A stretch of 64,000 bases of DNA from a virus: the IMG/VR virus record IMGVR_UViG_3300028394_000044, positions 1 through 64,000 of that record. One strand, written 5' to 3'. Of this stretch, positions 30,925 to 51,904 are shown piece after piece. How positions within the stretch are numbered: the stretch's first letter is position 1; each line of letters opens with the position of its first letter. Made by a program: the position numbers and the translations under genes. A model generated the notes under the pieces. That model made no database searches, had not been told where the DNA came from, and saw nothing but the letters and a program-made list of their open reading frames with translations.

Positions 30925-30954
30925 AATAACCTCACTTTGGTGAGGTTATTTTTT
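30925..30954 (+). terminator. Intrinsic terminator closing the fibre cluster
   Basis: Perfect 11-bp stem 30925-30935 (AATAACCTCAC) with 30940-30950, TTTG loop, then a T-run to 30954. Confidence 0.9.
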
Positions 30955-30959
30955 ATCTT

Positions 30960-30967
30960 TATAAATA
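30960..30967 (+). promoter_or_regulatory. T4-type late promoter for the neck/head operon
   Basis: Exact TATAAATA six bases after the terminator and 27 nt before the gp13 start. The terminator-promoter pair marks a clean boundary between fibre and neck units. Confidence 0.8.
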
Positions 30968-30993: not shown

Positions 30994-31947
30994 ATGGCTA
31001 AACCTACAACAAGAACCGAATTTAAAGACTACTGTTTACGTAGATTAGGTCATCCAGTTATTCAAATTAACGTTGATGATGACCAAGTTGAAGATCGTAT
31101 TGATGATGCTTTATCATTTTTTCACGATTACCATTTTGATGGTTGTGAAAAAATGTTTATGAAACATCAAATGACACAAGTTGATATTGACAGACGCTGG
31201 ATTTATTGCCCGGATGCCGTATTATTTGTGACTGGTGTTATGCCTTTCGACTCTTCTTCATCATCAGTCAATATGTTTGACTTACGTTATCAATTGCGTT
31301 TACATGATTTGTATGATTTTACATCAGTTTCTTATGTCTCATATGAGATTACCATGCAACACATCCAGACATTAAATTTATTATTCTCTGGTACACCTCA
31401 ATTTAGATTTAATCGCAAACAAAATAAAGTATTTCTTGATATAAATTGGAGTTCCGATTTGCAAGTGGGTGAGTATGTTATACTTGATTGTTACCGTAAA
31501 GTTAGTCCAGACATATTTACAATTTCTGGAACAGTTACAACTTCAAATACCACTAACCTTGTTACTGGTACAGGAACAGTATTCTCCAGAGATGTTACTA
31601 TTGGCGATGATATGACTTTTGGTAGCGAATCTAAACGTATTGTATCTATTATCAGTGACACACAATTAGTTGTGGATTCAACATTTAGCACAATACAAAC
31701 AAATGTGACTGCGTTTAAAGCTGGCGAATCCGATGTATGGGATGATAAATTTTTAAAATCGTATGCAACTGCTAAAATTAAATATCAATGGGGAACTAAT
31801 TTATCTAAGTTTGCAGGCATTCAAATGCCCGGTGGTGTAACATTAGATGGTCCTCGTATTATGCAAGAAGCACAAACTGAGATTGATAAACTAGAAGAAG
31901 AAATGTTCAACTCCAATAGTTTGCCAAGTGAAATTTTTACTGGATAA
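30994..31947 (+). CDS. gp13: Neck protein gp13 (head completion)
   Basis: 317 residues, close to T4 gp13 (309). It opens TRTEFKDYCLRRLGHPVIQIN and continues DDDQVEDRIDDALSFFHDYHFDG, which is the conserved start of gp13-family neck proteins. The end (WDDKFLKSYATAKIKYQWGTNLSKF, GPRIMQEAQTEIDKLEEEM) also matches. A small beta insert at residues about 170-245 (ISGTVTTSNTTNLVTGTGTVF) resembles an added Ig-like or tip module. In T4, gp13 and gp14 complete the filled head for tail joining. Order gp13-gp14-gp15-gp16 is as in T4. Confidence 0.9.
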   Translation: MAKPTTRTEFKDYCLRRLGHPVIQINVDDDQVEDRIDDALSFFHDYHFDGCEKMFMKHQMTQVDIDRRWIYCPDAVLFVTGVMPFDSSSSSVNMFDLRYQLRLHDLYDFTSVSYVSYEITMQHIQTLNLLFSGTPQFRFNRKQNKVFLDINWSSDLQVGEYVILDCYRKVSPDIFTISGTVTTSNTTNLVTGTGTVFSRDVTIGDDMTFGSESKRIVSIISDTQLVVDSTFSTIQTNVTAFKAGESDVWDDKFLKSYATAKIKYQWGTNLSKFAGIQMPGGVTLDGPRIMQEAQTEIDKLEEEMFNSNSLPSEIFTG

Positions 31948-32853
31948 TTGGAGCATAAAATTTCTACCAACTTTTATTTCAATAATTTTCCACAACATCA
32001 AATTACCAGTGAGCAATTACTGGTTGAAGATTTGGTGATTGAAGCTATGCAAATTCATGGTATGGATGTATTCTATCTTCCTCGCATGACTGGAGATAGT
32101 GTAGATTATATTTATGGTGAAGATACATTGAAACAATATCGTCAAGCATTACCTATAGAAATGTATCTAGAAAACGTTACAGGTATGGATGGTGAAGGCG
32201 ATTTTATCTCTAAGTTTGGTCTTGAAATTCGAGATGAAGTTACTTTATTAGTATCTCGCCGTAGATTTGCGGCAACAGTAAAACAAATTAGACCTAATGA
32301 AGGTGACTTGGTTTACATTCCATTGTTACAGAACTTTTTTGAAATTACATTTGTTGAACATGAAAACAATCAAGCAATGTTCTATACACTTGGTCGCGGA
32401 CGTGGCGGCAACGTTTATGTTTACGCTTTGCGTATGAAACAATTTGTCTTCTCTGAAGAAATTATTTCTACCGGTATTGAAGAGGTTGATGGTCAGATAT
32501 TTGATTCATATAAACGCACTAAATTGATACTTGCAAACACTGGTTCAGGTTCATTCTTGCCAACAGAAAGTGTGTACCAAGGAACATCATTGGCAACATC
32601 AACAGCGCAAGCTGTGGTGTATTCTTATTCACCACATTCTGAAATTATGGTTATTCAACTTCAAGGAACATTTGCTAATGGAGCCAATGTGATTGGTGCT
32701 ACGAGCGGTGCTTCACGACCAATTATTCAAGAAGATACTTGGACTCAAGTGGGCAATACTATGTTTGAAGAACTTGCAGATAACACAAGATTAGAAAATG
32801 AAGGTAAAGACATTATTGATTTTACAGAACATAATCCATTTGGTGAAGCCTGA
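31948..32853 (+). CDS. gp14: Neck protein gp14 (head completion), start uncertain
   Basis: Conserved gp14 features: NNFPQHQITSEQLLVEDLVIEA..IHGMDVFYLPR, then LVSRRRF and a C-terminal DFTEHNPFGEA. The coordinates given use a TTG at 31948 directly after the gp13 stop. That TTG has no Shine-Dalgarno sequence. An ATT at 31960 is preceded by GGAG with six-base spacing and would give the family-like N-terminus STNFYFNNFP. No ATG exists before residue about 34. I think the ATT at 31960 is the likelier start, giving 297 residues. Function as in T4: joins the completed head to the tail with gp13. Confidence 0.88.
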   Translation: MEHKISTNFYFNNFPQHQITSEQLLVEDLVIEAMQIHGMDVFYLPRMTGDSVDYIYGEDTLKQYRQALPIEMYLENVTGMDGEGDFISKFGLEIRDEVTLLVSRRRFAATVKQIRPNEGDLVYIPLLQNFFEITFVEHENNQAMFYTLGRGRGGNVYVYALRMKQFVFSEEIISTGIEEVDGQIFDSYKRTKLILANTGSGSFLPTESVYQGTSLATSTAQAVVYSYSPHSEIMVIQLQGTFANGANVIGATSGASRPIIQEDTWTQVGNTMFEELADNTRLENEGKDIIDFTEHNPFGEA

Positions 32854-33851
32854 TGTTAAATAACGATCACTTTTACAACCGAACAATAAGAAAAGTTATT
32901 GTTGCATTTGGTAGTGTGTTTAATGATATTGAAATTATTCGTTATAATAAAGCACAAACTACAGAGTATGAAAGAATTCGTGTTCCATTGTCCTATGGAC
33001 CAAAAGAAAAATATTTAACTCGCATTACTACTGATCCAAATTTGACAAAATCTATTGCTACTATGGTTCCACGTATTGGATTTGACTTATCTAGTTTATC
33101 GTATGACGTTAATAGAAAATTAAATACTATGTCCAGAAATACAGCCATTCAAAACAATGGTTCCATTGCTGGACAATACAATCCAGTTCCATACGATTTT
33201 GATTTTGACATGGCAATTTATGTCAGAAACATTGAAGATGGTACTCAAATTCTTGAACAAATTCTTCCATTTTTTACCCCAGATTTTACAGTCACTGTGA
33301 ATCTAAATGAAGCGATGGGTAGAAAATATGATATGCCTATTATTTTAAATTCAGTTTCTTCTGAAATTGATTATGAGAGTGATATGACTACAACAAGATT
33401 GGTCATGTGGAATCTTTCATTTACAGCTAAAGGTTATATTTTTCCTGCCGTAAAAACAGATGCCAAAATAATTAACCGAGCTAACACCAATTTTTATATT
33501 GACAGTAGAAATACACAAAGTCAACAAGTGTATGTTGATAAAGCAAACAGTTCTGGGGTGTTTACAACAAACGAAACTTATCGAGAAATTGCTACAGGCA
33601 AAACTGGAACAATTGTTTATTATGCAAACAATACAACAGGATCATTAGTAGTTACGAATGTATCAGATTTATTGGATGAGGGTGATGAAATTATTGGTGA
33701 TTATTCTCACTCTAGAGCAATCATAAATACAGTAGATGTTAATCCATTAAAAACAGTTTCTGTAGTTATTACAACAAATCCTTATGGTAAATTACCCAAT
33801 AGTGATTTTGGTTATATAACAACAAGAAAAGAGTTTCCAAAAACAATATGA
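32853..33851 (+). CDS. gp15: Tail sheath stabiliser gp15
   Basis: 332 residues (T4 gp15: 272). The gp15-family signature is clear: DHFYNRTIRKVIVAFGSVFNDIEI, LSYGPKEKYLTRI, PRIGFDLSSLSYDVNRKLNTM and PYDFDFDMAIYVRN. In T4, gp15 forms the hexamer that caps the tail and docks it to the neck. The C-terminal 110 residues are an extension with KTGTIVYYANNTTGSL and LDEGDEIIGDYSHSRAII. The start overlaps the gp14 stop (TGATG). Confidence 0.9.
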   Translation: MLNNDHFYNRTIRKVIVAFGSVFNDIEIIRYNKAQTTEYERIRVPLSYGPKEKYLTRITTDPNLTKSIATMVPRIGFDLSSLSYDVNRKLNTMSRNTAIQNNGSIAGQYNPVPYDFDFDMAIYVRNIEDGTQILEQILPFFTPDFTVTVNLNEAMGRKYDMPIILNSVSSEIDYESDMTTTRLVMWNLSFTAKGYIFPAVKTDAKIINRANTNFYIDSRNTQSQQVYVDKANSSGVFTTNETYREIATGKTGTIVYYANNTTGSLVVTNVSDLLDEGDEIIGDYSHSRAIINTVDVNPLKTVSVVITTNPYGKLPNSDFGYITTRKEFPKTI

Positions 33852-34234
33852 AAAATAGTGACCAAAAATTATCGGATATTTTTGATATTGCGCCTGCAAT
33901 AAATGTAACACCTGCGCTTGTGCCTATTGTGGATGAGGGGGTTGAATCTGATTTTGCTTTTGCTAGAAAAAATATTAGAGATTTGGTAGAAAAAGGAAAT
34001 ACAGCGGTTGATAATATACTTCAAGTTGCATCGGCTACAGATCATCCAAGAGCATATGAAGTTGCATCTAACATGATTAAACAACTTGGAGAGTTAAATC
34101 GTGATTTACTTTCTCTACAAAAAATGCGTAAAGAATTATCTCCTCAAGCATTACAAACAACTGTTAATGTTGATAAGGCAGTATTTGTTGGATCAACAGC
34201 GGAATTAATTAAACAAATCAAAGGAATCCAATAA
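33848..34234 (+). CDS. gp16: Small terminase subunit gp16
   Basis: 128 residues, ATGA overlap with gp15. Its central helical region (DFAFARKNIRDLVEKGNTAVDNIL, then HPRAYEVASNMIKQLGELNRDLL) is the coiled-coil core of T4-type small terminases, which recognise DNA and stimulate gp17. The C-terminal LIKQIKGIQ is the short gp17-contact-like tail. Its position just before gp17 agrees except that a Dps gene is inserted between them. Shorter than T4 gp16 (164), as usual in far-T4 phages. Confidence 0.88.
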   Translation: MKNSDQKLSDIFDIAPAINVTPALVPIVDEGVESDFAFARKNIRDLVEKGNTAVDNILQVASATDHPRAYEVASNMIKQLGELNRDLLSLQKMRKELSPQALQTTVNVDKAVFVGSTAELIKQIKGIQ

Positions 34235-34668
34235 TGGATACACTCATTCAACAACTAAAAGTTATTCTTGGTACAAATTTTGCACTGTATTTTAAGTCAC
34301 ATGGTTTCCATTGGAACATTGAGGGTTCAAATTTTCCACAGTATCACGATTTCTTAAATAATTTTTATACTGCTGTATTTGCACAAACTGATACTATTTC
34401 AGAACATATTCGTTATCTTGGTTCATATTCACCAGGATCGTTAGCTAGAATGTTAGAGCTTGCAGACATTCAAGAATCGACTAATATTCCAGATGCACTA
34501 AGCATGATGACAGAATTGAAAGCGGATAATGATAGATTCATTTATCATTTGAGAGCAGGCATTCAAGCCGCGGAAAATGCACAAGAACCTGCGGTGTCAA
34601 ATTTTCTACAAGACTTATTGGGTAACCATCAAAAACAAGCATGGATGTTAAGAAGCATTATTAAGTAA
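34234..34668 (+). CDS. dps: Dps-family ferritin-like DNA protection protein
   Basis: 144 residues. The segment SHGFHWNIEGSNFPQYHDFLNNF and TDTISEHIR is the Dps core. His26, His38, Asp53 and Glu57 reproduce the 12, 15 and 4 residue spacing of the inter-subunit ferroxidase ligands of bacterial Dps (E. coli His51, His63, Asp78, Glu82). A tryptophan follows the first histidine as in the family. Dps forms 12-subunit shells that oxidise and store iron and can bind DNA, protecting it from peroxide. The protein lacks the Lys-rich N-terminal tail of E. coli Dps, so DNA binding is doubtful. It starts on the gp16 stop (TAATG) and is followed two bases later by gp17, so it is co-expressed with packaging genes. 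Confidence 0.88.
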   Translation: MDTLIQQLKVILGTNFALYFKSHGFHWNIEGSNFPQYHDFLNNFYTAVFAQTDTISEHIRYLGSYSPGSLARMLELADIQESTNIPDALSMMTELKADNDRFIYHLRAGIQAAENAQEPAVSNFLQDLLGNHQKQAWMLRSIIK

Positions 34669-34669
34669 T

Positions 34670-36304
34670 ATGGAATTAGGTGGATATCAAGGTAACTCAA
34701 AACTCAAACGTGGTGGTATTGAAATTGAATACACACATGAACAGTTAATTGAAATTACAAAGTGCATTAAAGATCCAGTATATTTTATTAAAAATTACAT
34801 GAAAATTGTGAACGTAGATCACGGTCTTGTTCCTTTTAATATGTGGCCATTTCAAGAAGAAATGGTTAAAAGTTTTCATGTAAATAGATTTACTATTGCA
34901 AAAATGCCGCGGCAGGTTGGTAAAACAACCACAACAGCAGGATACATGCTTTGGTCCATATTATTCCAAGATGATTATAAGATTGCTATTCTAGCCAACA
35001 AAGGCGATTTGGCACGTGATATTCTTGGTCGGATTAAGTATGCTTACGAATATCTTCCTTTGTGGATGCAACAGGGCATCATGGAGTGGAACAAAGGTAA
35101 TATTGTACTAGAAAATGGTTCTGAAATTTCAGCATATGCTACTAGCGCAAGTGGTGTTCGTGGTGGATCATACAACTTAATCTTTTTGGATGAGTTTGCA
35201 TTCGTTCCACATAACATGGCGGAAGAATTCTTTACTTCTACATATCCGGTTATTTCATCTGGTAAAACAACAAAGGTTATTATTGTTTCAACACCACATG
35301 GACTGAATCAATTCTACCGTATGTGGACCGATGCAGTTGAGAAACGTTCAACTTATATTCCATTAGAAGTACATTGGTCTATGGTTCCAGGTAGAGATGC
35401 CGATTGGAGAGAAGAGACAATTAGAAACACCAGTGAAGAACAATTTAGGCAGGAATTTGAAACTGAGTTTATCGGTTCATCCGCTACATTAATTCCTGGT
35501 GCTAAATTGAAGATGTTGACCTTCTTTTCCCCACAAAGCTCACACGAAAATCATGACATTTATGAAGAACCAAAAACTGGTCACACATATGTTTCTGTAG
35601 TTGATTGTGCTGAAGGTGTAAACAGAGACTATTCTGTGGTTTCTGTATTTGATGTTACCGAGATTCCATATAGACATGTAGCTAAGTTTAGGGATAATAA
35701 ATTATCTCCATTGATTTTTCCAACATATGTTTATAATATTGCAATGCGATATAATCGAGCATACGTTTTAGTAGAAACTAATAGTGTTGGTCAACAAGTT
35801 GTAGACATTTTACATTATGATTTGGAATATGAGAACATTTTCCGTATCGAAAGTCATGAAGTTAAAGGTCAACATATCGCTTCAGGCTTTAAAAAAGGTG
35901 CAGCTTATGGAGTAAAAACTTCAAAAACTGTAAAAAAGATTGGTTGTGCAAACTTAAAAACTTTAATTGAAACTGATAAATTAATTACTAATGATTTTGA
36001 CACCATTGCAGAACTAAATACATTTGTACGAAATAAAGACTCCTACGAAGCTGAAGAAGGTAACAATGACGATATTGTTATGACTTTGGTGCTTTTTTCT
36101 TGGTTAACTGCACAAAGTTACTTCAGAGAAATTACAGACTCTGATGTTAGACAAAGATTGTTGGATGAAAGAAATCTTCAACTTGAAGATGAAATGCTTC
36201 CAGTTGGAATGCTTGATGATGGTCTGGAAGAACAAAAAGAATTTGATGGACAAGATTTATGGTCTTCTGTTAAAGACCGTGGCTATCTAACCTCAAGTTT
36301 ATAA
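34670..36304 (+). CDS. gp17: Large terminase subunit gp17
   Basis: 544 residues. The ATPase domain has a Walker A-type P-loop (PRQVGKTT, residues 80-87) and Walker B (LIFLDEFAFV, residues 170-179). A C-terminal RNase H-fold nuclease begins near YVSVVDCAEGVNRDYSVVSVFD (about residue 305), with later acidic residues in VLVETNSVG and NDDIVMTLVLFSW. This is the motor that packages and cuts DNA at the portal. It is somewhat shorter than T4 gp17 (610), lacking part of the C-terminal tail. The start lies two bases after the dps stop, without an independent promoter in view. Confidence 0.95.
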   Translation: MELGGYQGNSKLKRGGIEIEYTHEQLIEITKCIKDPVYFIKNYMKIVNVDHGLVPFNMWPFQEEMVKSFHVNRFTIAKMPRQVGKTTTTAGYMLWSILFQDDYKIAILANKGDLARDILGRIKYAYEYLPLWMQQGIMEWNKGNIVLENGSEISAYATSASGVRGGSYNLIFLDEFAFVPHNMAEEFFTSTYPVISSGKTTKVIIVSTPHGLNQFYRMWTDAVEKRSTYIPLEVHWSMVPGRDADWREETIRNTSEEQFRQEFETEFIGSSATLIPGAKLKMLTFFSPQSSHENHDIYEEPKTGHTYVSVVDCAEGVNRDYSVVSVFDVTEIPYRHVAKFRDNKLSPLIFPTYVYNIAMRYNRAYVLVETNSVGQQVVDILHYDLEYENIFRIESHEVKGQHIASGFKKGAAYGVKTSKTVKKIGCANLKTLIETDKLITNDFDTIAELNTFVRNKDSYEAEEGNNDDIVMTLVLFSWLTAQSYFREITDSDVRQRLLDERNLQLEDEMLPVGMLDDGLEEQKEFDGQDLWSSVKDRGYLTSSL

Positions 36305-36360: not shown

Positions 36361-38025
36361 ATGGCTTTTCAATTATCACCTGGTGTTCAAGTATCCGAAG
36401 TAGATTTGACAACAGTTGTCCCTTCAGTAGCTACTACTGTTGGAGCTATTGTTGGTGGATTTTCTTGGGGACCTGCAAACACTATTACCACTATTAGCAA
36501 CGAGATTCAACTTGTTGATAGATTTGGTAAACCTGATGCGAATACATACGAAACTTTCTATACTGCTGCTAATTTTTTGTCTTATGGTCAAGACTTGAGA
36601 GTTATTCGGATGGTTGGTGCAGGCGCAAAAAACGCTGTAGCAAACGCTAATGCAAGCACAGTTTTGATTGAAAATCGTACTTCTTACGAACAATCTTACA
36701 GTTCAAACACTTCATCTATATTTAATGCTAAGTATGCTGGCGCATTAGGTAACTCCATCAAAGTTTCTATTGCAGATTCTAATACATTTAGCTCATGGAC
36801 ATATTCATCTAATTTCGACTCTACTCCAGCGACTACAGTGTGGGCATCAGATCGCAGTTCTTCAAATGATGAAATGCACATTATTGTTATTGATACTAAT
36901 GGTAGAATCAGCGGTATTGCTGGTACAATTTTAGAAAAATATCCTTTTGTTTCTAAAGCATCCGATGCTAAAAATCCAGATGGTTCTAGCAACTATTACA
37001 AAGAGGTTATTAATTCTAAATCTAAATACCTATGGTGGGCTGGCCACATGAAAGCTAACTGGGGTACAGATTCTAGTGGTGCGGTTTCATATTCAGTTAT
37101 GACAACACCATTTACTGCTACTCTATCTGGTGGGGTTGATGCTACTCCTTCTACTGGTAACACAAACTTTGGCTATGGTACTTTTGCTAATCCTGATTCT
37201 ATTGATGTTTCTCTAATCATGGCAGGCAATGGTGGTGCAACTACAGTTAACTATCTAATTTCTATTGCAGAAAGTCGTAAAGATTGTTTAGTGTTTGCTT
37301 CTCCATTGAAAACAGATTGTGTAGATAGTGTTGGTTCTGAATCTGCCGAGATTATTGCAACAGCAGGAACTTATACAAAATCTAGTTATGCAGTTATGGA
37401 TTCCGGTTGGAAATATCAATACGACAAATACAATGACGTATATCGTTGGGTACCATTGAATGGTGACATTGCTGGGTTGTGTGTACGTACTGACATTGAA
37501 CGTGATCCTTGGTTCTCACCAGCAGGTTTGAATCGTGGTATTATTAAGAACGTTATTCGCTTGGCTTGGAATCCAACTAAAGCTGAACGTGATGACTTGT
37601 ATAAAAACGGCGTTAACCCAGTTGTTTCTTTCCCAGGTGAAGGCACAATCCTTTACGGTGATAAGACTCTTCTGAACCGTCCTTCTGCATTTGACCGTAT
37701 TAACGTTCGTAGACTTTTCATTGTACTTGAAAAATCAATTGCAAAAGCTGCTCGCTCTTCTATGTTCGAATTTAATGATGAATTTACTCGTGCAGCATTC
37801 GTTAACTTGGTAGAACCATATTTGCGTAATGTACAAGGTCGCCGAGGCATCTATGACTTTAAAGTTGTGTGCGATACTACAAACAATACGGGTGAAGTTA
37901 TTGACCAAAATCAATTCATTGGTGATATTTACATCAAACCAGCTCGTTCAATCAACTACATTCAATTGAATTTCACTGCGGTACGTACCGGCGTGAACTT
38001 CTTTGAGATTGTTGGAAAAGCGTAA
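36361..38025 (+). CDS. gp18: Tail sheath protein gp18
   Basis: 554 residues. The conserved sheath start (LSPGVQVSEVDLTTVVPSV..TVGAIVGGFSWGP) and end (YDFKVVCDTTNNTGEVIDQNQFIGDIYIKPARSINYIQLNFTAVRTGVNF) are clear. Contractile sheath subunits polymerise around the tube and drive DNA delivery. The variable middle (residues about 100-280) corresponds to the outward-facing protease-resistant domains. Codon use is tidier, with more C-ending codons near the 3' end, as is usual for highly expressed structural genes. Confidence 0.95.
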   Translation: MAFQLSPGVQVSEVDLTTVVPSVATTVGAIVGGFSWGPANTITTISNEIQLVDRFGKPDANTYETFYTAANFLSYGQDLRVIRMVGAGAKNAVANANASTVLIENRTSYEQSYSSNTSSIFNAKYAGALGNSIKVSIADSNTFSSWTYSSNFDSTPATTVWASDRSSSNDEMHIIVIDTNGRISGIAGTILEKYPFVSKASDAKNPDGSSNYYKEVINSKSKYLWWAGHMKANWGTDSSGAVSYSVMTTPFTATLSGGVDATPSTGNTNFGYGTFANPDSIDVSLIMAGNGGATTVNYLISIAESRKDCLVFASPLKTDCVDSVGSESAEIIATAGTYTKSSYAVMDSGWKYQYDKYNDVYRWVPLNGDIAGLCVRTDIERDPWFSPAGLNRGIIKNVIRLAWNPTKAERDDLYKNGVNPVVSFPGEGTILYGDKTLLNRPSAFDRINVRRLFIVLEKSIAKAARSSMFEFNDEFTRAAFVNLVEPYLRNVQGRRGIYDFKVVCDTTNNTGEVIDQNQFIGDIYIKPARSINYIQLNFTAVRTGVNFFEIVGKA

Positions 38026-38053: not shown

Positions 38054-38599
38054 ATGGCTTTCAATATTAACCAATTCCGCTCTCAAATGCAGGGCGATGG
38101 CGCCCGCCCAAATTTATTTGAGGTAACATTACCCTTTCCAGGATTCGCATTGCCTGGCACCGCACTAACTAAATTAAGTTTCATGTGCAAAACTGCTCAG
38201 TTGCCTGGTTCTACAGTTAACACAGTTCCTGTCCAATATTTTGGACGTGAATTAAAGTTTGCTGGTAATAGAACTTTCCAAGACTGGACTATCACAGTTA
38301 TCAATGATGAAGATTTTATTATCCGTAATGCTTTTGAGCGTTGGATGAATGGTCTAAATAGTCATGCATTGAACGTTCGTAATCCAGCGGCTGCTACACC
38401 AAGTAGTTACACCGTTGATTCAGAAGTACGTCAATATAGTAAGGCTGGGAATATTCTGAAGAAATACAAATTCATTGGAATGTTTCCTACGGATGTTGCA
38501 CCAATTGATGTTGATTGGGGTTCTAATGATACTATCGAAGAATTCTCAGTTACTTTATCATTCCAATGGTGGGAATCCGCAGAGGACTTAGTAGCCTAA
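38054..38599 (+). CDS. gp19: Tail tube protein gp19
   Basis: 181 residues (T4: 163). FNINQFRSQMQGDGARPNLFEVTLPFP and FMCKTAQLPGSTVNTVPVQYFGRELKFAGNRTF are typical of gp19-type tubes. The end SNDTIEEFSVTLSFQWWE matches too. Stacked hexamers form the DNA conduit inside the sheath. It has its own terminator 6 bases downstream, which fits a need for high, independent expression. Confidence 0.93.
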   Translation: MAFNINQFRSQMQGDGARPNLFEVTLPFPGFALPGTALTKLSFMCKTAQLPGSTVNTVPVQYFGRELKFAGNRTFQDWTITVINDEDFIIRNAFERWMNGLNSHALNVRNPAAATPSSYTVDSEVRQYSKAGNILKKYKFIGMFPTDVAPIDVDWGSNDTIEEFSVTLSFQWWESAEDLVA

Positions 38600-38604
38600 T
38601 TTGA

Positions 38605-38629
38605 GAGGGAGGATATCTCCCTCATTTTT
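38605..38629 (+). terminator. Intrinsic terminator after tail tube gene
   Basis: Seven-base perfect stem GAGGGAG (38605-38611) with CTCCCTC (38617-38623), GATAT loop, then ATTTTTG. Confidence 0.85.
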
Positions 38630-40336: not shown

Positions 40337-40492
40337 ATGGAAACAAGAGATTTTATTGATTTATTAGGAGCTGGTGAAGCATCCGAAGCTAAAAATGCTT
40401 TGGAAGAATTGCTCTCAGCTAAAGCATTTGATGCATTAGAAACAAAAAAACAAGAAATTGCATCCACACTTTTCACTACACAAGAAACATAA
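40337..40492 (+). CDS. gp67: Prohead core protein, gp67-like
   Basis: 51 residues: METRDFIDLLGAGEASEAKN, then ALEELLSAKAFDALETKKQE and IASTLFTTQET. A short helical protein in this exact place between portal and protease, with a F..L...G....A...F.E.L..K...ALE.KK.EIA...F pattern, corresponds to gp67-type prohead core proteins of T4-like phages. In T4, gp67 is part of the scaffold and is cleaved by gp21. An AATAAGGAG ribosome-binding site precedes the ATG. Shorter than T4 gp67 (80), as in cyanophages. Confidence 0.75.
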   Translation: METRDFIDLLGAGEASEAKNALEELLSAKAFDALETKKQEIASTLFTTQET

Positions 40493-41187
40493 TGAAATCT
40501 TTACAAGAATTTAAATTAATTTCTGAGGAAGAAAAACAAGACTTCACTAAGTTTGATGCGCTTGTTCGTGCAGGTTTAGCCAATAAAGCACAACTTCAAA
40601 GATTGCATAAAATTCTCAGTAAAATGTCGGAAGAAAAACCTAATTTTTCACCAGCAGATAAAGCTATTATACAAAATGTATTTTCGAAAATGGTTGATTT
40701 GATTACTAATAATCCTCAAATTAATCGCCAAGTACGTAAGGCGGTTAATGAGAATGTTCATGATACTTCAGATTTCAAACTTGATGCTACAGGCAGAAAA
40801 GTCAAGGCACACAGGTTTAAAATAGGCAAAGATGAAACAATTGAAGAATCGATTAGTAATCAACCTCCCTACGTTATTGTTCTTAAAAGAACAGCAATTC
40901 GTTTGTATCCTAATGGAACAAAAGTTGCAACTTATTATAGTCAACGTTTAAATAAAGAATTTGCTATACCTTTTAGTGAAGATTCACTAAATATACAATC
41001 AGAAGGTTACGTTGTAGATTTTGATGACGGTGAATTTGTATTGGTAGATTTTGATACGGCATCAATAATGAATCAAGTATATGAATCCTTGAATAATGCA
41101 AACAAAGATAAATTTGCTAATATGATGCATGAATCTTTAGAACAATTTGAAAAGGCAAAATCTTTTGCTCTGAGTAAAACTAAATGA
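40492..41187 (+). CDS. Head morphogenesis-region protein of unknown function
   Basis: 231 residues, start overlapping the gp67-like stop (TAATG). The N-terminal half is helical and charged (EEEKQDFTKFDALVRAGLANKAQLQRLHKIL). A central linker has many charged residues, and the C-terminal half is beta-rich (VIVLKRTAIRLYPNGTKVATYYS, VVDFDDGEFVLVDFD). Its location, between gp67 and gp21, is where T4 has gp68, another core protein, but I see no clear sequence match. An ISE site at residues 10-12 fits the gp21 cleavage consensus. Confidence 0.55.
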   Translation: MKSLQEFKLISEEEKQDFTKFDALVRAGLANKAQLQRLHKILSKMSEEKPNFSPADKAIIQNVFSKMVDLITNNPQINRQVRKAVNENVHDTSDFKLDATGRKVKAHRFKIGKDETIEESISNQPPYVIVLKRTAIRLYPNGTKVATYYSQRLNKEFAIPFSEDSLNIQSEGYVVDFDDGEFVLVDFDTASIMNQVYESLNNANKDKFANMMHESLEQFEKAKSFALSKTK

Positions 41188-41624
41188 GATTAATTGACTT
41201 CATATTTGAAGGTAGAGCTGTAGAAGCAAGAGAAGAAATTTTTTCTCGCTTAAATGATATTGTAGCTAAACGTTTAGAAGAAGCAAAGCAAATTATTGCA
41301 ACACATATATATGAAGAGATAGAGATTCTTGATGAAGCTCCTTCACGTAATATTATTAGACAAGGTAGAGTTGAAAAGATTCGCCGTAGAATTAGACGTA
41401 ATTCACAAGGACGAATTGTAGTTCAACGTAACGTTAAACGTTCTGCTCTAAAAGGATTTAAAATTTCTGGAAATACTGTAAAAAGAATACCTGCTATGCA
41501 ACGTATTCAAAAGACCAGAAAGTTGAAAAGATATTGGAAAACAAAAGGTAGGGCTAAAATGAATAGAACATTATTAAAAAGAAAAATGTCAATTCGCCGC
41601 CGCACATCAATGGGAATAAAATAA
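41184..41624 (+). CDS. Highly basic prohead protein, candidate internal head protein
   Basis: 146 residues, ATGA overlap with the gene before. The first 51 residues are acidic and helical (SRLNDIVAKRLEEAKQIIAT, then HIYEEIEILDE). The remaining 95 residues hold 21 Arg and 14 Lys with one Glu (for example VEKIRRRIRRNSQGR and SIRRRTSMGIK). The junction ILDE-A fits the (L/I)-x-E cleavage consensus of T4 gp21 protease, so the acidic half could be a prohead-targeting propeptide and the basic half a DNA-binding internal protein. It occupies the gp68 position of T4. Cleavage and packaging are inferences; no homologue is claimed. Confidence 0.6.
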   Translation: MRLIDFIFEGRAVEAREEIFSRLNDIVAKRLEEAKQIIATHIYEEIEILDEAPSRNIIRQGRVEKIRRRIRRNSQGRIVVQRNVKRSALKGFKISGNTVKRIPAMQRIQKTRKLKRYWKTKGRAKMNRTLLKRKMSIRRRTSMGIK

Positions 41625-49127: not shown

Positions 49128-50195
49128 ATGCGAATTGCCTTAATAAACGATACACATGCAGGCGCACGTGGAGATAGCTTACTCTTCAATGAATTCTTTT
49201 TTAAATTCTGGGAAGGCACATTTTTTCCCTACTTAAAAGAAAATAACATTAAACACATTGTTCATTTGGGTGATGTTGTTGATCGCCGTAAGTTTATAAA
49301 CTATGTAATTTTAAATCAATGGAGAACACGTTTCTTTGATGTACTACAGCGTGAAGGCATCACAATGGATGTTATCGTTGGCAATCATGATGTTACATTC
49401 AAAAATACAAATGAAATTAATGCAATGCATGAATTGTTTGACCATTACACAAATATTCAAGTATTGATAGCACCGAAATTAAATAATTACGATGGTCTTG
49501 ATGTGCTGATGGTTCCATGGATTAACTCTGGCAACTATGAACAATCAATGGAAGAACTTAGCACAACTTCTGCACAAGTTGCATTTGGACATTTTGAAAT
49601 TGCTGGCTTTGAAATGGATAGAGGCAATATATCACATTCAGGTTTAGATAGAAAAGTTTTTGATAAATTTGACATGGTTTTGTCTGGTCACTTCCATCAC
49701 AAATCTACAGATGGTACAATTTACTATCTTGGTAATCAATATGAAATCACTTGGGCAGATCATGAAGATACTCGCGGGTTCCATGTGTTTGATACGACAA
49801 CAAGAGACTTGACATTTATTCAAAATCCCAATAAAATATTTTATAAAGTTTCATATGATGATTCTGTGCAAGACTTTTCTTCGTGGAAAAAATATGACTA
49901 TTCGCAACACAAAAATACATATGTTAAAATTGTTGTAGTCAATAAACAAAATTCATACATGTTTGATTATGTTATAGATGCAATGTACAAGGCACAAGTT
50001 GCTGATATTGCTATTGTTGAAGACTACACGGATATCTCTATAGAAGATGATGAAGAATTGGTAAATCAAGCTGAAGATACAATGACAATTCTTGCCAAAT
50101 ATATTGATGGATTGACAGTTAATGTCGATTCGACTAAACTCAAAAATTTAATGCGTGAGTTATATGTCGAATCTTTGAATACAGAAATTGAATGA
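49128..50195 (+). CDS. gp47: Recombination nuclease subunit gp47 (SbcD/Mre11-like)
   Basis: 355 residues from the ATG at 49128 (T4: 339). Phosphoesterase motifs: NDTHAG (Asp8, His10), HLGDVVDRR (47-54), GNHD (85-88) and SGHFHHK. Manganese-dependent nuclease that works with gp46 to resect ends for recombination-dependent replication. A longer in-frame opening at 49086 exists only because of the junction duplication and is rejected. The gp46 start overlaps its stop (ATGA). Confidence 0.94.
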   Translation: MRIALINDTHAGARGDSLLFNEFFFKFWEGTFFPYLKENNIKHIVHLGDVVDRRKFINYVILNQWRTRFFDVLQREGITMDVIVGNHDVTFKNTNEINAMHELFDHYTNIQVLIAPKLNNYDGLDVLMVPWINSGNYEQSMEELSTTSAQVAFGHFEIAGFEMDRGNISHSGLDRKVFDKFDMVLSGHFHHKSTDGTIYYLGNQYEITWADHEDTRGFHVFDTTTRDLTFIQNPNKIFYKVSYDDSVQDFSSWKKYDYSQHKNTYVKIVVVNKQNSYMFDYVIDAMYKAQVADIAIVEDYTDISIEDDEELVNQAEDTMTILAKYIDGLTVNVDSTKLKNLMRELYVESLNTEIE

Positions 50196-51904
50196 TTATA
50201 TTTAAAACTATTCGGTACAAGAACTTTCTGAGTACTGGTAATTATTTTACAGAAATAAAATTGAATGGTAGTACTAATACGTTGGTTATTGGTACAAATG
50301 GTGCTGGCAAAAGTACTATGCTTGATGCGTTATGTTTTGGTTTGTTTGGGAAACCTTTTCGTAATATCAATAAGCCACAACTTATGAACAGTATCAATCA
50401 AAAAGATTGTGTTGTTGAAATTGAACTTTCTATAGGTACAAAAGAGTATAAAATTGTACGTGGTATAAAGCCAAATGTGTTTGAAATTTATCTAGATGGT
50501 GAGTTATTAAATCAAGATGCCGCAGTAAAAGACTATCAAGAACATTTGGAAAAATTTATTCTCAAATTGAATTATAAATCATTTACACAAATTGTAATTC
50601 TTGGTTCAGCATCATTCGTTCCTTTTATGCAATTATCATCTTCTGATCGCCGTGCAATTATTGAAGATTTGCTTGATATTCAAATCTTTTCTACCATGAA
50701 CACAGTATTAAAAGACAAAGTTGCAATCAATAAAGAAGCAATCAATAATAATAAGCACGATACAAATTTGTTTACTACTAAGCATGATATGCAAGAATCT
50801 CATATTGAGGTTTTAAAACAAAACAACAATGAGATGATTGTAAAAAAAGAATCTGAAATTGCCACAATCATGTTACAGATTAAAAATGTGAATAGCATTA
50901 TTGCAGAATTGAACACAGAAGTTTCTGAGTTACAGGGTAGTATTAATGATAAAGATAGTGTTAATGCTAAACTCAAAAAATTGAATCAGTTTGAAACTCA
51001 GATCGAGTCTAACCTTTCAAAACATAAAAAAGATATTAACTTTTTTGAGAACAATGATGATTGTCCAACTTGCCGTCAAGCAATTAACCAAGAATTCAAA
51101 AATACACAAATAAAAGAACTTGGCAGTAAAATAGAAAAGTTTGCTGAAGGCTTATCAAAACTTGAAATTGATATTATTGAGCAACAGAATAAATTGAATG
51201 TTATTCAAGAGATTACTTCGGATATACACAGTAAACAAGTTAGTATTGCCTCCAATACAACAACAGTAATACAGTCTACCAATTATATTACTAAACTTCA
51301 AAAAGAAATTATTGAGTTGAGTGGTACAAAAGAAGATTTAAGATCCGAGACTGATAAGTTGGATAAGTTAAAAACTTCACTGTTAAATTTGGAAGAGACA
51401 AAGAAACAATTATTTGATGAAAAAACGTACTTAGAGGCAGCATCATTATTGCTGAAAGATTCTGGAATAAAAACAAAAATTATCAAACAGTATTTGCCAG
51501 TAATTAATAAATTGGTAAATAAATATTTGGCTACACTAGATTTCTTTGTTAACTTTAACCTTGATGAATCATTTAAAGAAACTATCAAGTCTCGTCACCG
51601 AGATGAGTTTAGCTATGCATCTTTTAGTGAAGGTGAAAAACAACGTATCGATATGGCTCTGATGTTAACTTGGCGCGCTGTTGCTAAGTTGAAGAACTCT
51701 ACGAATACGAATCTTCTTATTTTGGATGAGGTGTTTGACTCTTCACTAGATAATAATGGTACAGAATATTTAATGAGCATTTTGCAGATGCTTGAAGATG
51801 TTAACTTGTTTGTCATTTCTCATAAGGGTGATATTCTACAAGATAAATTTAGGTCTGTATTACGTTTTGAAAAAGTTAATAATTTTAGTAGGATAGCAAC
51901 ATGA
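50192..51904 (+). CDS. gp46: Recombination nuclease subunit gp46 (SbcC/Rad50-like)
   Basis: 570 residues (T4: 560). Walker A GTNGAGKST (34-42), zinc-hook CPTC (about 291-294) in the middle of a long coiled coil, ABC signature SFSEGEKQR (about 477) and Walker B LLILDEVFDSS (about 507). ATPase that, with gp47, processes double-strand ends. In T4 the complex is required for host DNA degradation and recombination-dependent replication. Complete by all motifs. Confidence 0.95.
   Translation: MIIFKTIRYKNFLSTGNYFTEIKLNGSTNTLVIGTNGAGKSTMLDALCFGLFGKPFRNINKPQLMNSINQKDCVVEIELSIGTKEYKIVRGIKPNVFEIYLDGELLNQDAAVKDYQEHLEKFILKLNYKSFTQIVILGSASFVPFMQLSSSDRRAIIEDLLDIQIFSTMNTVLKDKVAINKEAINNNKHDTNLFTTKHDMQESHIEVLKQNNNEMIVKKESEIATIMLQIKNVNSIIAELNTEVSELQGSINDKDSVNAKLKKLNQFETQIESNLSKHKKDINFFENNDDCPTCRQAINQEFKNTQIKELGSKIEKFAEGLSKLEIDIIEQQNKLNVIQEITSDIHSKQVSIASNTTTVIQSTNYITKLQKEIIELSGTKEDLRSETDKLDKLKTSLLNLEETKKQLFDEKTYLEAASLLLKDSGIKTKIIKQYLPVINKLVNKYLATLDFFVNFNLDESFKETIKSRHRDEFSYASFSEGEKQRIDMALMLTWRAVAKLKNSTNTNLLILDEVFDSSLDNNGTEYLMSILQMLEDVNLFVISHKGDILQDKFRSVLRFEKVNNFSRIAT

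Follow-up and report, generated by a model that had tools for sequence, protein, structure and literature searches.

The genes for the two terminase subunits of a T4-like phage, gp16 and gp17, are separated in the DNA analysed here by the gene of a small ferritin of the Dps type. The question is what such a protein does at this place: whether it serves the packaging of DNA, travels in the phage head, or has a task in the infected cell to which its neighbours are incidental. The window is the whole stretch that was analysed, 64,000 nucleotides (positions 1 to 64,000 of IMG/VR record IMGVR_UViG_3300028394_000044). The features around dps are as follows.

30925..30950 (+): likely intrinsic terminator closing the preceding unit (11-bp stem, 4-nt loop, T run)
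30960..30967 (+): T4-late-promoter-like TATAAATA, 34 nt upstream of the head-tail adaptor gene (30994)
30994..33851 (+): gp13-like adaptor, gp14-like head closure protein and gp15 tail sheath stabiliser (phrog_211, phrog_460, phrog_227; PF11649, PF16724)
33848..34234 (+): gp16-like terminase small subunit (PF11053, 3.2e-9; phrog_445, 1.7e-32)
34234..34668 (+): dps, 144-residue Dps mini-ferritin (PF00210, phrog_3636, AlphaFold2, Foldseek)
34670..36304 (+): gp17-like T4-type terminase large subunit (PF03237, 3.3e-31; PF17289, 9.1e-13)
36307 (+): CATAAATA near-motif, preceding gp18
36361-38025 (+): tail sheath gp18 (PF04984, PF17482)
38054-38599 (+): tail-tube-like gene, assigned by position
38605-38623 (+): terminator-like site, likely closing the dps unit

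The dps reading frame starts with an ATG whose first base is also the last base of the gp16 stop codon (TAATG; gp16 ends at 34234), and a single base lies between the dps stop codon and the gp17 ATG at 34670. An earlier note, made from the sequence, had described the overlap with gp16 correctly and had placed dps two bases before gp17, one too many. The same note had called the product a Dps ferritin and had proposed a profile search with the ferritin-like family and a structural comparison, both of which agree with the assignment. The product matches the Pfam Ferritin profile PF00210 at 2.3e-20 and phrog_3636 ('DNA binding protein') at 2.9e-31, and a sequence search of the PDB matched Dps-type chains or constructs derived from them. 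The AlphaFold2 monomer, predicted from an alignment of 40 phage relatives (pLDDT 97.1, pTM 0.91), has helices at residues 2-28, 34-49, 51-61, 70-76, 88-115 and 119-143. They comprise a four-helix bundle and the short helix 70-76, which is the BC helix peculiar to Dps. The best Foldseek match of the model in the PDB is not a four-helix protein of another kind but the Pseudomonas aeruginosa Dps PA0962 (TM 0.95, 29% identity), and all 50 hits listed are Dps-type. A bacterioferritin or 24-mer ferritin is ruled out, as the model has no E helix and the PDB fold hits listed are all Dps-type; the combination of an intra-subunit di-iron site with a C-terminal E helix, by which bacterioferritins are recognised, is not found in the phage protein. 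By analogy with other Dps proteins, it should assemble as a 12-subunit cage.

Over 185 close pairs the median dN/dS is 0.07, a sign of strong purifying selection; dps is a real, conserved gene of known kind. Its GC content of about 34% equals that of the neighbouring genes, so that its composition gives no sign of recent foreign origin. Two scans of genome contigs found no close cellular relative, and the plasmid-borne Dps proteins among the matches listed are at most about 38% identical to the phage protein; no donor can therefore be named.

The residues to which the note had drawn attention, His26, His38, Asp53 and Glu57, recur unchanged in 149 of 149 phage relatives. Counted from the first His, the others lie at +12, +27 and +31, which is exactly the spacing of His25, His37, Asp52 and Glu56 in HP-NAP, where these residues bind metal across the dimer interface and are perfectly conserved in Dps proteins (PMC4192664). 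Such invariance combined with such spacing is not due to chance. In the predicted helix geometry His26 and His38 are found at the turn between helices A and B, and Asp53 and Glu57 at least 15 residues further on helix B. As this spacing would put the two pairs more than 20 Å apart within one chain, they would meet only between two subunits, and the model thus points to an inter-subunit site as the one place where the ligands converge. Trp27 and Tyr45 are likewise invariant in all 149 relatives, and their spacing matches that of W32 and Y50 in Listeria Dps, which act as a radical trap (cited in PMC10002758).

In canonical Dps proteins an Asp or Glu four residues after the second His holds the site-B iron via a water molecule (PMC6675082). 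The phage protein has Asn42 there, and the family varies at this position (Asn in 95, Gly in 33, Asp in 11, Ala in 5, Ser in 4 and Glu in 1). NpDps4, a characterised Dps, has Asn at the same position and oxidises iron with O2 (PMC6675082), so the site-B acid is common rather than defining and the membership of the phage protein in the Dps class stands. By analogy with NpDps4, Asn42 could make the di-iron chemistry weaker or O2-driven. The centre is not of the His-type, in which a His replaces the conserved site-A Asp, since Asp53 is kept in 149 of 149 relatives. The predicted ferroxidase site is complete in its four invariant ligands and non-canonical at the fifth, and its oxidant may be H2O2 or O2. 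The 'complete ferroxidase centre' of the note is accurate for the four ligands and slightly overstated for the fifth position.

The chain begins MDTLIQQLKVIL at helix A and ends at helix D. A Lys/Arg-rich tail was found at neither terminus, in this protein or in its family, as the note had remarked for the Lys-rich tail, and a pI of 5.6 (family median 5.3) marks the protein as acidic. These properties make DNA binding of the E. coli type unlikely.

The genes for gp13, gp14, gp15, gp16, Dps, gp17, gp18 and the next protein are closely spaced and co-directional, with the head-tail adaptor gene (30994) as the first and a terminator-like site after the last. The number of TATAAATA copies in the window is not above chance, and general enrichment of the motif was therefore dropped as an argument, which leaves strand and position as its informative features. 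Each of the six copies is on the coding strand, and four of them are found 10-45 nt ahead of a gene start, within a zone that comprises 3.5% of positions. Late co-expression of dps with the structural and terminase genes is likely on these grounds. The claim that Dps is made late with the packaging genes agrees with a likely late unit, gp13 to gp19, that spans gp16, dps and gp17 and has a terminator and TATAAATA at its start.

How constant the position of dps is can be judged from surveys of the best-matching loci, whose frequencies hold within the clade and not for all T4-like phages. In the 80 nearest dps loci of IMG/VR, dps is directly preceded by gp16 and/or followed by gp17 as far as the contigs extend; in 73 of them strict limits hold on either side, and in two an additional stretch of about 1 kb lies ahead of the gp17 match. 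When the survey is based on gp17, dps stands between gp16 and gp17 in 70 of the 72 close loci with room for it (twice with an extra ORF in the interval), and gp16 is joined directly to gp17 in the other two, L091 and L092. The position between gp16 and gp17 is a rule of the clade. Of 80 loci of a more distant dps subfamily, about 40% identical, about 50 have the gene in this interval and 29 have it elsewhere. Inserts of 0.8-1.2 kb in this operon were also seen between gp15 and gp16 (L010, L029, L007) and between dps and gp17 (L046, L057). The carrier contigs are presumably mostly lake-associated or freshwater, to judge by IMG sample numbers and related literature. A cyanophage host was considered; a search of the 162-kb record for a psbA-type gene found none.

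The note had assumed that T4-like phages usually have gp16 and gp17 side by side, which is not true of this branch. All four cultured Kyanoviridae relatives examined carry other ORFs between the two genes: a dioxygenase and a tryptophan halogenase in HTVC008M (L085 1052-3011), an F5/8C-domain protein in Melnitz (L086 1272-3305), three ORFs in S-PM2 and one small ORF in Mosig. These are non-core genes in the same interval, and no insert is a Dps. The interval survey that the note had suggested shows dps as the regular occupant in close loci and other inserts in cultured relatives. The gp16-gp17 interval looks like a general cargo site of the Kyanoviridae, for metabolic or carbohydrate-binding genes. 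No close dps was found in the cultured phages of the collection, the best being that of S-SRM01 (31.9%), which is not beside the terminase genes.

A gp16-gp17 locus that is constant within one clade could mean that the function of Dps is tied to packaging. Pairwise distances were correlated over 89 distinct loci in which gp15, gp16, dps and gp17 are complete and adjacent. The correlation is 0.78 for gp15 and gp16 and 0.65 for gp16 and gp17, whereas for dps and gp17 it is 0.10, a value reached by 15 of 200 permutations. The gene is INDEPENDENCE from the terminase: its divergence is nearly uncorrelated with that of gp17. There are pairs of loci with 90% identical dps and 44% identical gp17, and others with 37-44% identical dps and 85-94% identical gp17. 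L092 has a clean junction without dps, and its gp17 and gp16 DNA is 97.5% and 94.5% identical to that of L094. L091 and L092, compared with L094, represent a natural absence and presence of dps at 87-97% identity of gp17 DNA, the L091 and L092 records being fragments, so that dps may lie elsewhere in these genomes. In relatives of 163-167 kb (gp17 46-48% identical), dps is tens of kb from gp17, in a distant cluster. The low correlation, the absence from L092 and the distant cluster together indicate that dps is retained without being tied to the locus or to gp17. A core terminase component is expected wherever gp16 and gp17 occur and should diverge with them; dps does neither, and the special packaging-stage role that had been considered for it finds no support in this evidence. 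One of the 163-167 kb records has a second, weaker ferritin-like match, and such matches in Dps-bearing phages are located at G004 136265-136654, G010 50091-50474, G011 49862-50245 and G012 157942-158082.

The family and fold of the protein, the conservation of its ligands and of its locus, the purifying selection, and the gp17 independence, alternative locus and natural absence of dps are direct observations, from which a function can be proposed in some detail. Probably dps is an exchangeable late cargo, and its product a ferroxidase cage in the cytoplasm with a protective effect on the infected cell. The tail-less protein would assemble as a 12-subunit cage, and the ferroxidase centre at each two-fold interface would consist of His26 and His38 from one subunit together with Asp53 and Glu57 from the other. 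The centre would oxidise Fe2+ with H2O2 or O2 and store Fe3+, and Trp27 and Tyr45 may quench stray radicals. Dps would be produced late, alongside the products of the structural and terminase genes, and would work in the cytoplasm; by reducing Fenton chemistry there, it would spare the DNA and proteins of the phage until the infected cell lyses. The interval between gp16 and gp17 would then be a tolerated insertion site in the late operon, and dps an exchangeable cargo rather than a part of the packaging motor. Peroxide and iron detoxification, which the note had named as the possible main job, is the best-supported function, with the activity predicted from sequence, model and analogy.

It is unlikely that Dps cages or subunits are packaged in the head and delivered to the next host for genome protection or iron handling at entry. 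The gene is encoded among head and packaging genes, and in some related phages dps is located inside a cluster whose otherwise different proteins (L207, L221, L233, L249 and others) have common short N-termini, MKxFxxFxxE. We take these N-termini to resemble the targeting sequences of T4 internal head proteins. Dps folds are also present in BFVD within longer uncultured-phage proteins of 333-763 residues (A0A6J7XDU5, A0A6J7WPK9, A0A6J7WIS1), which carry the name 'Prohead protease' and may be either real fusions or annotation errors. However, no N-terminal capsid-targeting sequence of the kind that the prohead protease cleaves in T4 internal head proteins is recognisable on the phage Dps, and the suggestion that it is carried in the head gains no support from this protein. 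Only seven in-frame codons precede its ATG (the open frame has 151 residues). Its relatives start directly at helix A, the rare in-frame upstream extensions being probably start-site artefacts, and no fusion occurs among the approximately 320 Dps ORFs fetched, all of at most 199 residues. The homologous cluster of the window phage itself (contig 83930-92279) is without dps; proteins with such N-termini are encoded there too, at contig 83930-91070 (L337/L338). One protein with the MKxFxxFxxE type of N-terminus is nucleotidyltransferase-like. In the window, two genes after the portal gene (40492-41187 and 41184-41624) start with MKSLQEFKLISEEE and MRLIDFIFEGR, N-termini that are also targeting-like and near prohead genes.

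Similarly doubtful is a broader proposal, that a virion or DNA-handling role, through head loading or a DNA action like that of PA0962, holds Dps at the packaging locus and that alleles are swapped there because the position matters.

It is improbable that the cage stores iron for the use of the phage itself, to be inserted into tail-tip or fibre proteins or held for the progeny in a Ferrojan-horse manner, instead of protecting against peroxide. The likely late co-expression with tail genes, the capacity of a ferritin cavity for iron and the iron-binding tail proteins described in other phages would suit such a role, but the Dps chemistry of the studied homologues is usually linked to peroxide.

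That Dps assists packaging by binding, compacting or nicking DNA on behalf of the terminase is very improbable, and this reading was rejected. The tight abutment of dps on gp16 and gp17 invites the idea, as does PA0962, the closest solved homologue, which has no tail and cleaves DNA in vitro (PMC10002758). It is contradicted by the lack of co-divergence with gp17, by the intact gp16-gp17 junction without dps in the close relative L092, by the position of dps far from gp17 in related phages, and by the acidic, tail-less character of the protein. A neutral or selfish cargo without benefit is hardly credible: unrelated inserts do occupy the interval in cultured relatives (dioxygenase and halogenase, F5/8C-domain protein, small ORFs), but a dN/dS of 0.07, the invariant active-site residues and the near-universal retention of dps in the clade speak against it.

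If dps is an exchangeable late cargo for the protection of the infected cell, control of iron and peroxide would belong to the ordinary course of late infection in the phages that bear it, and lysis could release iron caged in protein and not as free ions. A mini-ferritin that is under selection and seems catalytically intact is encoded, within what is likely a late operon, by hundreds of uncultivated T4-like phages. The two near-identical loci of which one has dps and the other lacks it allow a natural comparison. As dps is independent of gp17, neighbourhood alone is a poor ground for a packaging role.

Dps in phages is already known, and in 2019 Kavagutti et al. proposed that the ferritin and other ROS-defence genes of freshwater phages serve to protect infected cells (PMC6802176); the main text of that paper does not mention Dps or terminase genes. 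In the open-access papers no report was found of a Dps between terminase genes. The fixed order gp16-dps-gp17 over a large uncultivated T4-like group, with an exchange of dps that is independent of the terminase, thus appears to be unreported in the open-access literature.

Among the known systems, the Synechococcus phages S-SRM01 and S-EIV1 encode Dps proteins that have the four ligands and, at +4, a Gly in place of an acid. They are 26-32% identical to the window Dps, and their genes are not between terminase genes. The S-SRM01-type Dps proteins form a separate phage subfamily (L257-L336) that is no less common (292 matched relatives) and is not near terminase genes in the loci read. NpDps4 and TeDpsA have the cyanobacterial His-type ferroxidase centre; NpDps4 resembles the phage protein in the Asn at the site-B carboxylate position (PMC6675082), but it has His78 where the phage protein has Asp53, so that the latter is not of the His-type. 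PA0962 (PDB 8ff9), the best match in both sequence and fold among the hits listed, oxidises Fe2+ with H2O2 and protects cells in addition to its DNA cleavage (PMC10002758). It shares with the phage Dps the His/His/Asp/Glu ligands, the conserved Trp, and the lack of a C-terminal tail and of a basic N-terminus. It differs in having a Glu at the position of Asn42 and a larger Tyr network, and its gene, unlike the phage dps, is one of the stress genes of a cell (PMC10002758). HP-NAP, the Dps of Helicobacter pylori, is only about 23-24% identical to the phage protein and has Glu41 where the latter has Asn42, yet both chains are 144 residues long, their ligand numbering is shifted by one, and the seven-residue helix 69-75 of HP-NAP (PMC4192664) has its counterpart in helix 70-76 of the phage Dps.
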